Source of the DNA: Apostichopus japonicus
Taxonomy: Eukaryota > Echinodermata > Holothuroidea > Aspidochirotida > Stichopodidae
NCBI RefSeq assembly: GCF_037975245.1
Contig: NC_092580.1
Location: forward strand, 22,990,501 to 23,054,500
Direction: 5' to 3'
Length of the DNA: 64,000 nucleotides
This document shows, piece after piece, positions 10,700 through 56,814 of the stretch. Each line of letters begins with the position of its first letter. The first letter of the stretch is position 1. Both the position numbers and the translations under genes were made by a program. Under the pieces are notes generated by a model, which searched no databases, was not told where the DNA came from, and saw only the letters and a program-made list of their open reading frames with translations.

Positions 10700-11939
10700 A
10701 TTAATCTGTGAATTCTCCAATGCTATGATTTTCTTATGGTGAACATAGTTTAGTCAAATTCAGTTCAGTTTAGTCTGTGAAGGGGCCCAATAGGTCTTCA
10801 ACGAAACATACCTCCCATCCAGGTAATGAAATCTGCAAAAGAGTTACAGTATGCTCTTGCTTTAAACGTGCACTTAAACCTCCTAGATCAGTTTTCATCC
10901 TTTGAGCTTCAAGTGGTCAACAGGTTATCTCAAATGGGCACAAACTGGCTCAATTAAGGGGTCATAAGATTTTCTCAAACGGTGGAAAAATATGCCATTT
11001 TTTTTCAAAAAAAATATAAACAATGTCATGTAACTCTCAACAATTATTTAAGGATTGCTAATTCAAAATTGGTGAAATGTATCTATATTTTACATAGGAA
11101 GACTGTTTTTTCTGGAAATTTAAACCCTTTAGTTTAAATTTTATAGGTGTTAAATCCTTATGAGTGGATGACATGGTTGCCCACAATGGATTGCTACAAA
11201 TCTTTGCTGGTTCTCACTTACAGTACAGTAATTCGTGGACAAATTTAACTCAATTGCTCTACATTAGTCAGATAGTTATTGTAAATTTTGAGCAAACTGT
11301 ATGGCAAGGAATTACACAGCTAACTGGCTTTTCTGGTTAATATCTAAAAGCAGAATATTAGCAAATTCCAAGCCATAATGGTCTTTATCCTTAGAAGTGA
11401 CATTTAAAACTTATTGATGTGAGCAACTGCAAAAAGCTATAAGAAAATCATGCTCTGTATGGGAGATAAATTACAATGGTTTGAAAATTGTGTCAAGGAG
11501 CATGCAGGCTGTCCATGTGTGCATGACCTCACTATGAAGTACCCGAATTAAAACAGTGAAACTTTTACATTACTTTTCCTTAAATTGCTTTTCTGTACAT
11601 AGTACTGAAAGTAACAAAACAGTATTTTTTAATGGAAACTCTACATTAAAGACTCAAGGATTTACAGTCAGTATTGGCAAAATGCAGATCTCAATCAAAG
11701 AAAAATATGCAGTGTATGCACACAATTCAAACACAAGTGGCTCCGTGATGTGATATAATTAAGAAAATTTCAACATCAATTTTTTTTTCAATTTCTTTAT
11801 TCCAGTATAAATTACAAAATAAGGACACATAATAATGATACACAAAAGACGTAAAAATGTACAATCATGAAAGCATAAGAAATAAGATGGAGGATTAGAA
11901 GGTTGAAAGATTAAAAGGATTATAACAGAGATTGTAAAA
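10700..11939. other. No gene seen
   Basis: AT-rich sequence without a recognisable gene. The 65-codon frame at 11,556-11,753 and the minus 69-codon frame at 11,759-11,968 have no domain or splice support. Confidence 0.5.
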
Positions 11940-14846
11940 GGGCCAAAGCCAAAATTGGTCATCCTCAAATCCCAAAAGTAAAGTTATTTCTGTGGGAGAA
12001 ATTTATTTTGGGCTCATGGCAGTACTAATTTTCACTTCAGAATAAAAAAAAAAAAATCTGAAAAATTTCGTTATCAGTGACATAGAGGTCGTTGAAATCT
12101 AAAAAGATGCGCACTAGGTGCGAGGGACGGAATTTAGTCTTATTGACCTAGCTGAAAATAAGGATGTGTGAGGTAAATTTGGTTTTCTGTAATTTGATGT
12201 TCATCTCTAGTGCAAATTATTCATTGGAAAAGTTTGGAATTTTTTTTTAATAAAAATGAAGAAAAATAGGAAAAAACGGTTCAAAATTCCGTCCCTCGCA
12301 TTTTTTGACACAATTGTTTTTTTTGAGAGAGAGAGGAAATAGTACAGTATGCATAAAAATCTGCAAAGTATCAACTATCAGTGACTTGAACATCTGTAGT
12401 GATGAAAGAAACTGAACAAAAATATGAATGGTGCATTATGGGTAATCAACATTTTCGCGAGGGACGGAATTCAGTGCGAGGGACGGAATTCTGTTACAGT
12501 TTGGTGCTACACGTCTGTAGTCCTAATCTGTAGCTAATAGAAATAGTTGACAGAACATATGTGTAAATTTCAACGACACAACTATAGCAGAATTCGACAG
12601 CATGCTGAACTTGCAAAGTTGAAGAAGGCACTTCCAGGAACAAATAGTGCTATCGATCATCCCAGTGGACTTTAGCGAGAACTATGCTAACAACTAAAAG
12701 AATGAAATACAGCATACTTTGGCCACGAGAATTTCACATTGTACACTGTTTGTGCATGGTATGCTGAAGGTGAGGAAGGTGAAGTGCAAAACCTTCTGTG
12801 TCATCAGTGATTACATGTCACATGACAAGTTCTAAGCTTTGCACTTCAATAAAGCTATCATTGAAAAGGTTCAACAATTTGTCCAAATCTGGATGAGAGG
12901 TTCAATTTTGGTCCGATGGCTGTGCTAGTTTAAATCAAAATATTGCTTTTACTTCCTTGCCACCCAGTACCCATGTGACATTCCAATAACATGGAGTTAT
13001 ATTGAATCTCACCATGGGAAGGGCCCAGTAGATAGGGTGGGAGGGGGGAAGATAAAATCAAGTGTGTACTGTGATGTCAAAGCAGGTAAAACTGTCATCA
13101 CTAGTGCCAAGCAGTTTGCAGAATATGCCAACATAGAGTGAATGCAACAGATACATTCTATGTAGCTGCATATGGCATAACCGTGCCTTCTATGCCAGGC
13201 AAGGTACCTGAAGTACCAGGTACACACAAGGTCCATTTTATTGACCGTACATGCAGTAATGGTAAGAGCAAACTGACTTTCTTCCTACAGAGTCAGTTTT
13301 GTGAACCAGTTGAAGAGATGCTCAGGGAGCAGTTGTATGACTTAAATGATGGAGTTGAAAGTCAGGTAGTCGTGAGCTATGATCAGGAACCAGATCCTAA
13401 TCTGAATAAAGTGGAAAACAGTGGTCAGGTTGAGTAGAATGGGGATCAAGATCAAATTGGTAGTCAGCTGGTTAACAATGATCAGTTACCATGGAAAGTG
13501 GTGGGTGGGTGATAGTTGAGTATAATGGTCAGTTGTATCCAGGAGAGGTGGAAAACATAATTGTCAGTAATTCACAGGTTAATGCCATGGCAAAAACAGG
13601 GAAGTATTGGAAGTGGCCAGAGGCAAAAGACCTACTGTGGTATTCAAGGGATATGGTGAAAGGAAATATAGCCCCTGTTCCCCCTGTATGCTTAACCAGA
13701 GACCATTATTTGTGTAATGAATTGTAAGCATTCATATCAATTCGTTGCACTATGGTGAGCTGTTTGTTGATTTCCAAATCTACATCATATCCAAGAGTTT
13801 GACATGTTAATGTTCCAATTTATACTGAATTGCATTGATGTATGTTGTGTACAATAGTTCATTTTTCTTATTAATGACAACTTAATGAGTTAACGTCATG
13901 ATGGGGGAAGAAGTTTTTAACTCTTTCATATGCTGTTTGGACCCGAATCTAAGCAGAGTTTTGCTAATGAATATGTGAATTGTCAATTTGAATTACAATG
14001 GTGACTTTGTTTCCTTGTATAAAGTATAAATGTTGAATTTGTACAGTAAATTAGTTTTCAGTTTCCAAATTTAAAAATTATATATTGTCCCACACTGTTG
14101 AATACACCTACAATATAAAGGTGGAAAATAGATTTAGTATTTGTGTTGGGTTTAAGATTCCTCATTTCAGGGAAGTGGTGGATGGAGGTGACTTAATTAT
14201 TATTCACCAAGGCATTTGAGTGGTGAGTGATGGAATGAATTTCAATTTTGATTCCAATTTACCTACATTTCACCCATCATCCCATCACCACCCCCATCTG
14301 TTCCTTGAATGTGTGTTCATTAATTGGATTGTGTAATTTGTGATAATATTCCCACTGCTTGTGGGAGCTTGGCAATGACAAACAGACTTTACAACAGCTT
14401 TTTCTCTAATTAATCAACATAAACAGCAATTCCGTCCCTCGCATTCCGTCCCTCGCGCTGACTTTTTTTGTGAAATTAAAGCGTAACCTAATTTAGCTAT
14501 GAGATTTTTAAAACACATTTCAGTTAATATCAGAAGAGTAATTGATCTTGTTATAAATGGTATGATTGGATATAGATTCCTCCTAAATTTGATAATAATA
14601 CGTCAAATGTTTGGAGTGCATGCAAACCCAGTTTTTATCATTCCGTCCCTCGCGCCAATTAATGTTCGTTGCTATGGCAACATGTTAAATTTTGAATATG
14701 TTTCAATTGTTTTATTATGTTGTATGTTACTCTCTTTATTTAACCTACTACTGGATTTTTCATATTTCACTACTGTTGAGCTGGAATAAATGGAAACGTA
14801 TATCAAATTCCGTCCCTCGCACTTACGGAGGTTTTGGCTTTGGCCC
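11940..14846 (+). mobile_element. Decayed DNA transposon with iterated subterminal 15-mers
   Basis: A 15-bp inverted repeat GGGCCAAAGCCAAAA lies at 11,940-11,954 and, inverted, at 14,832-14,846. Inside are eight copies of GCGAGGGACGGAATT. Forward copies are at 12,120-12,134, 12,457-12,471 and 12,476-12,490; inverted copies are at 12,285-12,299, 14,428-14,442, 14,443-14,456 (one base shorter), 14,640-14,653 (one base shorter) and 14,806-14,820. Left-half copies are mostly forward and right-half copies all inverted, the layout of subterminal transposase-binding repeats. A broken transposase-like gene lies between. The outermost 15-mers extend to an 18-bp inverted pair (12,118-12,135 and 14,805-14,822), so the true ends could be nearer these. 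No target-site duplication was found. Confidence 0.7.
12626..13727 (+). pseudogene. Transposase-like protein, broken by frameshifts and stops
   Basis: Reading across frames gives an ordered series of motifs: VDFSENYA (12,665-12,688), then in the next frame FGHENFTLYTVCAWYAEGE, then VISDYMSHDKF (12,800-12,832, followed by a stop), FWSDGCAS (from 12,906), SYIESHHGKGPVD (to 13,033), DVKAGKTVITSAKQFAEYAN (13,073-13,132) and VNATDTFYVAAYG. The C-terminal part has GGWVIVEYNGQLYPGEVE and WKWPEAKDLLWYSRDM, ending at 13,727. At least four frame changes and several stops separate these blocks, so no functional protein can be made. I recognise the motif series from a family of uncharacterised, multicopy animal proteins that behave like transposon genes; I cannot name the superfamily. 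The acidic and His positions in SDG and ESHHGKG could be catalytic, by inference only. Confidence 0.75.
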
Positions 14847-16019
14847 AAAAACCCATTTTAAATATAAATGGCTGCTCTGTAGATAAATGAGTTCTTAAAA
14901 AGCATAATTCTGAAAGTTGGCAAGATAGTAGGATTTCGTAGATTGTACTTGTTTGTTCTATTGCACAGAGAGATCAACTCGGAGTATTAAAAGTGGGTGA
15001 TCTTTAAATAGAACTATGTATATTCTCAGCTAGTCTTATGAAGTCATTTCTAGCAGCAGTGTTTATTTTACCAACCAAGCTTTCATATTCAAGATAATAT
15101 ATATTTGAGCAGTATTTCAAGAAACTTGTTCAAATCATGAGAGCCACATCATCTTTCAAGTTTTATCTGATAAAATTTTGCCATATATAGCTGTTTGCTA
15201 TCCGAGACTATCACAACAGACATATATCTGTTAAAAGCAGATATAAGATGATCGTTGGTTCTGCTTCTTCGAGTAAAAGCAAATTGTACAAATTCTTCAC
15301 AGAATTTTTTGAACAGAATTGTATGCCCTTGCCTTTTCCTAAAAAAATGTTTTCTTGAAATTCATATCACCCTGGACTATTTAACGTAAAGAAAGTCTCA
15401 ATCTTCAACTTATTTTTTTTTTGTACTCAGTTGGTTGTGTTTGTTGCTGGTACATCTTAATGTGCCTTCCTACAATACGATGCATTGACACATGATACTT
15501 CGCCAGAACTGAGCAAATTGCTTCAAAGTGGGTTACAGTCTTTATATTTACAAACAAAGATACAGTTCTGTGTATGTAAGGTGTTGTCTTCTTAGCTACA
15601 CTGATACATGTATAGTACACATAATACAGACTAGAATCAGCATTTCTAAAGATTCATTCTAAAATACCTAGATGTAAATAAATCAACAAAATGATTTAAA
15701 AATGACTGTGGAACTTGATTAAATAAACAAATTTTGGAACGTTCCAGAACCTTTCTGGCCTTTGGATCACAAGTCCTGAGCTATTTATACCTATAAATTG
15801 TATTTGGAATTTGGATTGCCTGAACCTATCCCTATTATCATTTGAACCTTACATTGTGCAATAATACTGAACAGGTTGGTAAATAAACCAGAATGAAAAC
15901 ATTTCATGGTTCCTTGCTGCTGTTCATTAGTTCCATTCATAGGGAAATTTCTAACAAAGCCCTAATACAACAACAGTAATTTATGCTCACAAACTTTTGT
16001 TGCCAAAGTAATGCTAAGC
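14847..16019. other. No gene seen
   Basis: AT-rich sequence; nothing recognisable beyond a minus 71-codon frame at 15,405-15,620 without domain or splice sites. Confidence 0.5.
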
Positions 16020-16817
16020 CCTGATATCAATTGCAACACACATCAGTGTGTGAAGACTATCTACCATTATCATCATACCAAGTTTGACGAAATTCCCATT
16101 AGTAATAGTAGCCAAGTAATTGCAATTTGGAGTATTTCACATTTGACCCCATGACCTCATTAATATTCATGATATGAGCACCAAAATCAACAGGGTTAAT
16201 CTACTTACTATTGGCCACCCACTCACCAAGTATGGTAATGATTGGTCATTCCCTTGTTGAGTTATTGTGCATACAAACTTTTCATAACGAAATAATGCTA
16301 GGCCCCCCCCCCCCTAATAAACATGCATGATATCAATTGCAACACACATCAGTGTGTGGAGACTATCTACCAATATCATCATACCAAGTTTGACGAAATT
16401 CCAATAAATAGTAGCCAAGTTATTGCAACTTGGGAGTTTTTCACGTTTGACCTGTGACCTCATTTATATTTTTTAACTTTGACCTCGTATAACTTCGCAC
16501 ACGAAGGTCACACGGGGGTCAACCTATTGACATTTATGATCAGAAGGTACCTTTGACATTTTTGGTGACCTCGGATCACATGACCGTTAAGTTTGAAAAT
16601 ATTCCCCTATACCATTTGCAACTTGTCCCAAAATATCAACCGTGTCACACCTTGGAACTGAGAGTTATTGCATTAAATGTCTGAAAATTAACTTTGACCT
16701 CGTATAACTCCGCACACGAAGGTCACACGGGGGTCAACCCATTGACATTTATGATCAGAAGGTACCTTTGACATCTGAAAATAGCATCGAAACTGTAAAA
16801 ATCCCCAAAACATGAAA

Positions 16818-55184: not shown

Positions 55185-55293
55185 GGGTTTCAACTAACGG
55201 ATTTATGTTATTGTGATCGTGAAATTTCGTTTGTACATGAAAAGAACCACAGTGTAGTAAATTTACCCACTTGAAGGTGAACCCAACTCATCC

Positions 55294-56814
55294 ATGATGA
55301 TGCTGTCATATACTGGTCTGCTATACATAGTAATATTATTGCCGACCAATATTGCGTCGGTGTCATCTTCCATCCAAGACTGTGGAATCACGGAAAGTAG
55401 CAACCATGTATTGGTAGATTGTTCATCGATTGGACTTCTTCAAATACCGCCTAAGATACCGGTTACCGTCACTAGCTTGAAACTCCAAAATAACTCTATA
55501 GAAACTATCGGCGCATCCGATTTAAGAGATTTGTTAAATCTTTCTCAGTTGGATCTTTCGAATAATCGCATATCGTGGATACACGACAAAGCTTTTGACG
55601 GTTTGGCCAACCTTTGGGATTTGACCCTTAGCCACAATCGTTTGACGAGAATCCCGGACGGTGGTTTTGACGGTTTAATACAACTATATACATTGACATT
55701 AAATCATAACCTTTTGACTGAGGTCAACCTATCTTTAATCACGCATAAAACTCTCATCGCATTGAACTTACGAAATAACAACATCTCGCGCATTGGGTCA
55801 AGTTTTATCAATAGAGAGGATGGGAATTTCTCCAGCTACCATGACCTAATCGAGTTGGAGCATTTAGATCTCGGTGATAACCAATTACAGACCTTACCTA
55901 ATGAGATATTCTACGCATTATCATTGGAAACTGTTAATCTGTCTGGAAACCCTTGGAGATGTGATTGCCATCTTAAATGGCTTGCAAAATGGCTGACGGT
56001 TCACAGGGAAACGACACAGCCCACTGAAATTGAACCAACTTGTGGCAATTCTGGACCTAACATAGGAAAACGTATTCGACGGGTTGAGTTTAATGATTTC
56101 GTTTGCGGTCCAACACCAATTCCACATTCGTCCACGATCTTCATCAGAGAAGGTGCTTTATCCGAAGTTCTCTGTCCAGTTTCTGCAGACCCACGACCGG
56201 ATATACGATGGTTTGTCAACGGTAGTCTTGTTACTTCTAATGATGTTAACGAGCCCATGATATTACAGTACGTATTAGTGACGCAAACACTGAGCATAAT
56301 GTTATTCCCATTGAACACTCAAGCCACATACCTTCTTACTTGTCAGGCAAATAATACAGCGGGGTCATTGTTAATCTCATTTTTAGTCCAAGTTGTTAAA
56401 TCAAGCGACTGGAAGTCAAAGTCTCACTTGTCAAAACTAGGTACTTGCTTTGATGACTTGACTAAACTCTTGGCATTTAGTACAGTCATATCAGGATTGG
56501 TCAGTGTGTTTACGCTATCGATGATTTTTCACGACAAGTTGAAAAGGTACAAGAGACATAGAGCCCAGAGAAACATGTATGTAATGTATAGGCCACCGCA
56601 GACTCGAGGTGACCATTACACAGAACCGTGTTACGCCCTCCTACGACAGGGTCAAATCAGCACTTCCGCCACCCCTCACCAACGTACTACTCCAGAGATA
56701 ACCAGAGTGGAGAATAGCCAGTCATCCGAAGTTTCAGACCGTTCCTCTCAATTTTCAAGCTATGACTCGTCCGGTTATCTTATAGTCTCTGATGGTGAAA
56801 ATACTGGGGAATAG
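55294..56814 (+). CDS. LRR-Ig single-pass membrane receptor
   Basis: A 506-residue cell-surface protein. A signal peptide occupies about residues 1-26; a short LRRNT cap (C30, C43) is followed by seven LRRs (LxxLxLxxNxI, about 60-219), then a complete LRRCT (PWRCDCHLKWL with C223, C225, C250, C271). One Ig domain follows at about 280-366 (C294, W306, C350, then CQANNTAG); the Tyr usually two residues before the second Ig Cys is Leu. A transmembrane helix lies at about 392-412, then a 94-residue cytoplasmic tail. N-glycosylation sequons occur at N66, N82, N145, N163, N178, N215, N309 and N353. The tail has YALL (Y447) and SGYLIV (Y495), the latter fitting the ITIM consensus. In-frame TAA at 55,258 supports the start; three Met codons in a row leave the exact one open. 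The intronless coding region and layout resemble LINGO/AMIGO/LRIG-type adhesion or immune receptors; orthology is unknown. Confidence 0.95.
   Translation: MMMLSYTGLLYIVILLPTNIASVSSSIQDCGITESSNHVLVDCSSIGLLQIPPKIPVTVTSLKLQNNSIETIGASDLRDLLNLSQLDLSNNRISWIHDKAFDGLANLWDLTLSHNRLTRIPDGGFDGLIQLYTLTLNHNLLTEVNLSLITHKTLIALNLRNNNISRIGSSFINREDGNFSSYHDLIELEHLDLGDNQLQTLPNEIFYALSLETVNLSGNPWRCDCHLKWLAKWLTVHRETTQPTEIEPTCGNSGPNIGKRIRRVEFNDFVCGPTPIPHSSTIFIREGALSEVLCPVSADPRPDIRWFVNGSLVTSNDVNEPMILQYVLVTQTLSIMLFPLNTQATYLLTCQANNTAGSLLISFLVQVVKSSDWKSKSHLSKLGTCFDDLTKLLAFSTVISGLVSVFTLSMIFHDKLKRYKRHRAQRNMYVMYRPPQTRGDHYTEPCYALLRQGQISTSATPHQRTTPEITRVENSQSSEVSDRSSQFSSYDSSGYLIVSDGENTGE

Follow-up and report, generated by a model that had tools for sequence, protein, structure and literature searches.

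We believe it likely that the element at 11940-14846 of the window (the whole 64-kb stretch of Apostichopus japonicus DNA that was analysed) is a non-autonomous cut-and-paste copy of a Sola-like transposon, probably of the Sola2 group. On the same reading the array of short words inside its ends would be the sites of its own transposase, with a spacing set by the transposase complex and a word that is specific to the family. The original prediction had described a transposon carrying eight copies of a 15-mer around a decayed gene, and had suggested that the family may be new.

The window element and its copies

The element is made up as follows; A and B name its right and left ends.

11936-11939, no strand: target-site duplication AAAA, left copy, the same letters as at 14847-14850
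11940-11954, + strand: terminal inverted repeat of the left end (B), GGGCCAAAGCCAAAA; all 15 of its positions pair with those of the right end
12120-12133, + strand: array site B1, GCGAGGGACGGAAT, 180 nt from the left end
12286-12299, - strand: array site B2, 346 nt from the left end, the sole reversed site of the left half
12457-12470, + strand: array site B3, 517 nt from the left end
12476-12489, + strand: array site B4, 536 nt from the left end and 19 nt from B3
12662-13138, + strand: decayed remnant of a transposase catalytic domain with stops and frame breaks, a tblastn match of P0001
13105-13724, + strand: more open stretches downstream of the remnant (13105-13434 and 13482-13724), from the open-frame list
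14429-14442, - strand: array site A4, 404 nt from the right end
14443-14456, - strand: array site A3, 390 nt from the right end, adjoining A4
14640-14653, - strand: array site A2, 193 nt from the right end
14807-14820, - strand: array site A1, 26 nt from the right end
14832-14846, - strand: right (A) terminal inverted repeat, the reverse complement of GGGCCAAAGCCAAAA, by comparison with the left end
14847-14850, no strand: target-site duplication AAAA, right copy, by comparison with the left one

The predicted boundaries are exact, with 15-bp inverted ends and AAAA on either side, and the claim of a DNA transposon stands. Allowing three mismatches, GCGAGGGACGGAAT(T/G) has eight copies in the window and all of them lie within the element; 0.40 matches are expected, and no more than two were seen in any of 100 shuffles. 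The 15-mer matches start at 12120+, 12285-, 12457+, 12476+, 14428-, 14442-, 14639- and 14806-. This gives the order + - + + in the left half and - - - - in the right, so three of four left-half copies are forward and all four right-half copies inverted, as had been said. One adjacent pair was also described correctly (12457/12476); the other is 14428/14442, its members overlapping by one base, and not 14428/14443. The 15-mer was held to be kept almost exactly, and six of the eight sites are exact while the other two have G, not T, as the last base. Because of this difference in the fifteenth base we take the 14-mer GCGAGGGACGGAAT as the constant word.

The gene between the array halves is indeed decayed. 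Its remnant (G000:C20:23003162-23003638) matches P0001, an open 176-aa stretch of the copy L030 of the same family, with an E of 3e-56, 67% identity and three internal stops. The open stretches downstream, 13105-13434 and 13482-13724, are like the C-terminal part of the intact relatives P0002 and P0003 when judged by eye alone, and they have no Pfam match. Just beyond the element are two 87-nt direct repeats (16022-16108 and 16328-16414), 93% identical and 306 nt apart from start to start. At 55261-56811 on the + strand the window has a 517-aa open frame in which Pfam recognises leucine-rich repeats and an immunoglobulin I-set domain; it resembles an ordinary animal cell-surface receptor.

The genome searched is a 671.6-Mb assembly of 35 contigs in which the window is C20:22990501-23054500. 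The 14-mer occurs exactly 175 times and the reversed-pattern control never. A word scattered through the genome is ruled out, since, of the 100 places listed, 94 belong to 15 clusters with three or more members and six stand single (counted by eye). The exact adjacent pair is found at 21 places, the window's own among them. There are 72 exact copies of the 15-bp end GGGCCAAAGCCAAAA (42 forward, 30 reverse; control 0), and 42 of these form 21 inverted pairs by our count by eye; 19 pairs span about 2.5 to 2.9 kb, one 3.6 kb and one 6.7 kb. Some of the unpaired ends are copies whose second end carries mismatches. We call this family F1. BLAST puts the copies that were compared at 91-98% identity with the window copy, and among themselves they reach as much as 99.7% in the alignment. 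Aligned loci have common boundaries and target duplications; exact 4-bp duplications (ATAT, AAAA, AGGT, TTAT and others) are present at 17 of 19 copies, L009 and L035 being the exceptions, in a count run on F1 and the sister family F2 together that omits L012, L025, L037, L042, L051 and L063, where an end is missing, diverged or outside the fetched stretch.

The words are better kept than the rest of the element. Over 19 copies, 141 of 152 array sites are exact and all 152 are within two mismatches. Substitutions fill 13 of 2128 cells in the words against 818 of 52284 elsewhere, and in CpG columns there are 9 changes in 665 against 78 in 953. Fisher's test gives 1.6e-10 for the CpG columns, a value made optimistic by the kinship of the copies, whose cells are not independent, and a block permutation against random 14-nt blocks gives only p = 0.03. 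L013 and L016 were left out as duplicates of L012 and L014, and the conservation count further omits L012 (a single end) and L031 (a large insertion).

In the main F1 group, 13 of 15 copies have TAA at one place in the gene; of the remaining two, one has TAC and one is without the region, and five copies of another branch read CAA there. A stop shared by 13 of 15 copies, together with copies up to 99.7% identical, suggests that the group spread after its gene had died and that the array was kept. The main F1 copies thus probably multiplied as non-autonomous elements, with the protein coming from trans. No intact F1 or F2 transposase was found in the genome, though identity between the closest F1 copies is 99.7%; one may lie in stretches missing from the assembly. 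Candidates for an autonomous F1 were rejected at L012 and L036 (7.3 kb), which are without the right end and without a full transposase, and at L031, which carries an insertion. L031 (G000:C19:17924239-17931346) is an F1 element of 6.7 kb whose intact ends, flanked by ATAT duplications, enclose several kb of other sequence, and just three words are left in it, at one mismatch. Two pairs of copies have matching flanks, L012/L013 (C4:1961107 and C4:1990971) and L014/L016 (C7:3046058 and C7:8973146), the latter as reverse complements, which suggests segmental duplication or an assembly artefact.

Sister families with other words

A second family, F2, has the same 15-bp end as F1, and its adjacent pair occurs at 21 genome places. 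Eight F2 elements were fetched with both ends, seven of about 2.5 kb and one of 3.6 kb. The F1 word is absent from all eight at two mismatches, and F2 was taken as array-less until repeat finding gave the same array with another word: each of the eight has eight copies of GTGGTGGGACGGAAT at no more than one mismatch, in the same places and directions as in F1. Exact 4-bp duplications are present at seven of the eight, and L019 fails. Of the 60 pairs that the shared-half pattern GGGACGGAAT finds, 38 carry the F1 word and 21 the F2 word, and the remaining one is an odd pair at L041. The odd locus (G000:C3:30290900-30294300) has at least six one-directional copies of TTGCGGGGACGGAAT, with the GGGACGGAAT half, and no recognisable copy of the element ends was found for this array. 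The F2 copy L034 (G000:C20:20318287-20322334) is longer by about 1.1 kb in its interior and has the full set of eight words. L063 was tried as an autonomous F2 and rejected, as it has no frame recognisable by eye as this transposase.

The arms of F1 and F2 still align (z of 11.6 and 6.9). Comparison of the window copy with the F2 element L020 shows a different left half of the word at eight of eight sites; the right half GGACGGAAT is the same at seven of eight, and site B3 of L020 reads GGACGGAAAC. Left flanks agree at 66 of 120 positions for the same site against 233 of 840 for different sites (Fisher 5e-9), and right flanks at 46 of 120 against 224 of 840 (Fisher 0.006). A C preceding the word is common to both families at B3 and A2, not at A3, and a G after the word is common at A2. 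Because the flanks agree site by site, we regard the F1 and F2 sites as positional homologues.

A tblastn search of the genome with P0001 gave 110 matches, none of them in the fetched F2 loci. Several of the relatives fetched are array elements with a word of their own:

F3: word GTTATGGACGGAAT; L058, with pieces in L046 and L049; 11 sites
F4: word GTGACGGACGTACA; L043; open transposase frame of 737 aa, duplication ATTT
F5: word GTGACTTACGTGAC; L044; open transposase frame of 674 aa, duplication AAAT
F6: word GTTACAGTGTGACA; L054; duplication AGTT
F7: word GTTACTCACGTTAC; L059 and L060; duplication ATAT

The ends of F4 and F5 were found first by eye and their duplications afterwards. The duplications of F6 and F7 are not independent evidence, because the end scan required a 4-bp repeat. 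The fetched F3 copy is flanked by ATGT and ACGT, which match at three of four positions. Each of nine representatives of the seven families has 8-11 sites of its own word, and the words of the other families are absent from all nine at two mismatches. Exact words number 164 in the genome for F2 (reversed control 1), 108 for F3 (0), 172 for F4 (7) and 223 for F5 (2). Among 100 listed places for the F5 word, 12 loci including L044 share the spacings 167 + 15 and 22 + 367-368 by eye. At G000:C12:28953474-28973198 the F5 words stand in regular units about 4.5-6.6 kb apart, which suggests a tandem array of F5 elements. The relatives L047, L052, L053, L055, L056 and L057 have no comparable array in the fetched stretches, and their element ends were not found; L055 and L057 have local clusters of other short repeats. 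Single chance off-family words turned up in L063 (F4-like, two mismatches) and in the L045 region (F3-like). L045 has four F7 words at one mismatch or less.

What the seven families have in common is the spacing. Sites lie 12-26, 182-194, 371-391 and 392-406 nt from end A and 345-364, 516-530 and 536-551 nt from end B in seven of seven families; a site about 180 nt from end B (slot B1) belongs to F1-F3 only, and one at 559-572 nt (slot B5) to F3-F7 only. The geometry of F3-F7 comes from one or two fetched elements per family. The mean distance to the nearest site is 6.5 nt at end A and 19.6 nt at end B, where random placement gives 48.6 +- 8.2 and 65.5 +- 11.3 respectively. None of 2000 random placements was as tight as the observed one at either end, under a null that places sites uniformly and independently and so ignores clustering and shared ancestry. 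The test omits three sites outside the simulated 430 nt, one of F1 with three mismatches (A 610) and two of F3 (A 557 and A 571). With the words masked, 36 of 42 arm comparisons are below z = 3 against shuffles; the six comparisons at or above it are F1/F2 in both arms, F1/F3, F2/F6 and F4/F6 in arm B, and F3/F5 in arm A. On these comparisons the families' sequence has been replaced while the spacing was nearly kept.

The scheme is not a rigid one. The sites point in different directions from one family to another, some families lack slot B1 or B5, and the F5 gene runs opposite to the F1 and F4 genes relative to the ends. There are eight sites in F1, F2 and F5-F7, 11 in F3, and in F4 nine at two mismatches or ten at three, the outermost A site being the one at three mismatches.

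It could be argued that the sites were homogenised by gene conversion or late duplication and that it means nothing for function that they are so uniform. Either process is expected to leave the same word at eight places. However, conversion tracts would need to be about as short as the word itself, given that same-site flanks agree better between F1 and F2, and the slots are common to families whose arms mostly no longer align. We consider this explanation highly improbable.

The words themselves seem to be related. Set by eye in one register they read GCGAG-GGAC-GGAAT in F1, GTTAT-GGAC-GGAAT in F3, GTGAC-GGAC-GTACA in F4, GTGAC-TTAC-GTGAC in F5 and GTTAC-TCAC-GTTAC in F7, and these five look like versions of one bipartite word, laid out as a half of about 5 bp, a 4-bp middle and a 5-bp half. 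In F5 and in F7 the word consists of a directly repeated 5-bp half. The F2 word has one base more in its left half, and the F6 word fits the register poorly. Identity is 11/14 for F1/F2, F1/F3 and F5/F7, and lowest at 3/14 for F2/F6. A tree of the catalytic domain (residues 400-585 of P0002, F3 being a fragment and F2 without a protein to place) joins F5 with F7 (96) and F4 with F6 (62), splits F1 and F3 from the rest (100), and puts the array-less relatives L047, L053 and L055-L057 in one clade (100). The tree neighbours F1/F3 and F5/F7 have words alike at 11/14 positions. The F4 word, however, is nearer to those of F1, F3 and F5 (9/14) than to that of its neighbour F6 (8/14; support 62). On this evidence the words follow the transposase tree in part only.

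The transposase and the reading of the array

Searches of the transposase against Pfam and NCBIfam gave no match above the cut-off, and a sequence search of the PDB gave nothing usable. The gene remnant's relative in F4, a frame of 737 aa, is predicted to have an integrase-like fold. Its model (pLDDT 71) has an RNase H-like core at residues 391-570 whose structural neighbours are retroviral integrases, a moderate match (7ouf_B, Z 10.2, rmsd 2.8, 140 aligned), and it superposes more poorly on the Mos1 transposase (rmsd 4.7 to 21.9). Before re-ranking, Foldseek gave one match at E <= 0.001, to IsrB, and a weak one (prob 0.57). D410, D490 and D531 are invariant in five sequences, with only D490 above 90% in a 13-row alignment, and in the model they appear to lie where a triad is expected. 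Six cysteines upstream of the core are invariant in four sequences and may form a zinc module. The part of the protein that holds these cysteines, the presumed DNA-binding (middle) region, is poorly modelled (pLDDT 59). Around residues 664-721 of the same frame, in L043, strands are predicted and a barrel is possible; Foldseek matches tudor and agenet domains (2ro0, prob 0.99; 6ie7, prob 0.97), with the C-terminal location inferred.

The original prediction saw in the array the geometry of protein-binding sites, which the results support; from sequence we infer the binding itself, and that the protein bound is the family's own transposase. Several transposase subunits would occupy the roughly four sites at each end and draw the ends together, and the catalytic domain would thereby come to sit on the short inverted repeat. 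It is the geometry of the multi-subunit complex that would set the spacing, as with the Hermes octamer in what could be seen of its description (PMC10368747). The word would be the family's identity: when the specificity of the transposase shifts the sites would follow, and the change would stop cross-mobilisation between sister families. F1 copies would have been moved by transposase supplied in trans.

A different idea is that the words bind a host protein, such as a transcription factor, a silencer or a nucleosome positioner, and that the arrays are promoters or host control sites. Many transposons have promoters in subterminal DNA, and successive outer sites are about 156-198 nt apart, which is close to the nucleosome repeat length. 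But such a protein should be met by one shared word, and seven families of one host differ in theirs. Escape from a host repressor would lead to loss of sites, not to a new word in every slot. We regard a host reader as quite unlikely.

Going beyond binding by the transposase, these families may combine a fixed ruler with an exchangeable bipartite 14-bp word, which was replaced in concert at almost all sites as the transposase changed, in F1 and F2 in one half alone, so that sisters become invisible to each other. We find the case for this extended proposal evenly balanced. If it is true, the arrays are a natural record of a multi-site recognition system changing its specificity with its function kept. 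The question is how a protein that binds many sites can change what it recognises when each single-site change should hurt. It becomes testable with seven families in one genome whose words differ while their layouts almost coincide, long open frames being present in two of the families, and with the sister pair F1 and F2, whose words differ in one half at eight of eight sites. The array families are also candidate transposon systems without mutual interference.

Comparison with known systems

Judged by ends, duplications, size and predicted fold, the elements probably fit the Sola superfamily, and within it Sola2. As far as the accessible text of PMC10741241 and PMC3627910 goes, Sola2 elements have AT-rich 4-bp duplications, short inverted ends, a length of 2-9 kb and a large DDD-type transposase; that text makes no mention of a word array. 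Here exact 4-bp duplications are present at 24 of 27 copies of F1 and F2, several of them containing G or C. The window element has inverted ends of 15 bp, for a Sola minimum of 11 bp, and the representatives are 2.5-4.6 kb long, within the 2-9 kb range. The suggestion of a new family is supported only in part, since the element fits a known kind. What the original prediction could not see is that further families of the genome share the layout and have words of their own. The literature searched, which takes in few subscription journals, gave no paper that treats such arrays in Sola elements.

Transposons of the hAT superfamily make 8-bp target duplications. Ours are 4 bp, and a 5-bp match is present at none of the 27 copies. 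The hAT element Hermes is similar in its many short repeats inside both ends, bound by the BED domains of an octameric transposase, and in ends that are arranged differently, in the portion of PMC10368747 that was available. Its motif is short and occurs 17 and 14 times at the two ends (PMC10368747, same portion), whereas the words here are of 14 bp, mostly four per end, and differ between sister families. Galileo of the P superfamily also has multiple sites for its THAP transposase in its ends, according to the part of PMC3688188 at hand. Galileo has those sites within inverted repeats of great length; in our elements the inverted ends measure 15 bp and the sites lie further in.

The VANDAL elements of Arabidopsis offer another way to read the words, as targets of a regulatory or anti-silencing protein encoded by the element, like VANC, rather than of the transposase in its cutting complex. 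The available part of PMC5735166 describes VANC targets as short words to which the protein binds, which vary from one related family to the next and change along with that protein, and family-specific words are what we find here; six of the seven family words contain CpG. In the F4 and F5 stretches a single reading frame apiece exceeds 200 aa, so a further large protein in one frame is not seen, though a spliced or smaller one would be compatible. VANC targets are often tandem repeats in non-coding DNA (PMC5735166, in that part), but here the sites are spread out, each at a set distance from one or the other end, with no more than small clusters of two to four among them. We allow this alternative a small chance and prefer sites read by the transposase. 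The mode of change sets the two systems apart as well: VANDAL words evolve jointly by tandem repeat formation, as far as that part of PMC5735166 tells, while in these elements dispersed sites, homologous in position, differ singly with the spacing nearly fixed.
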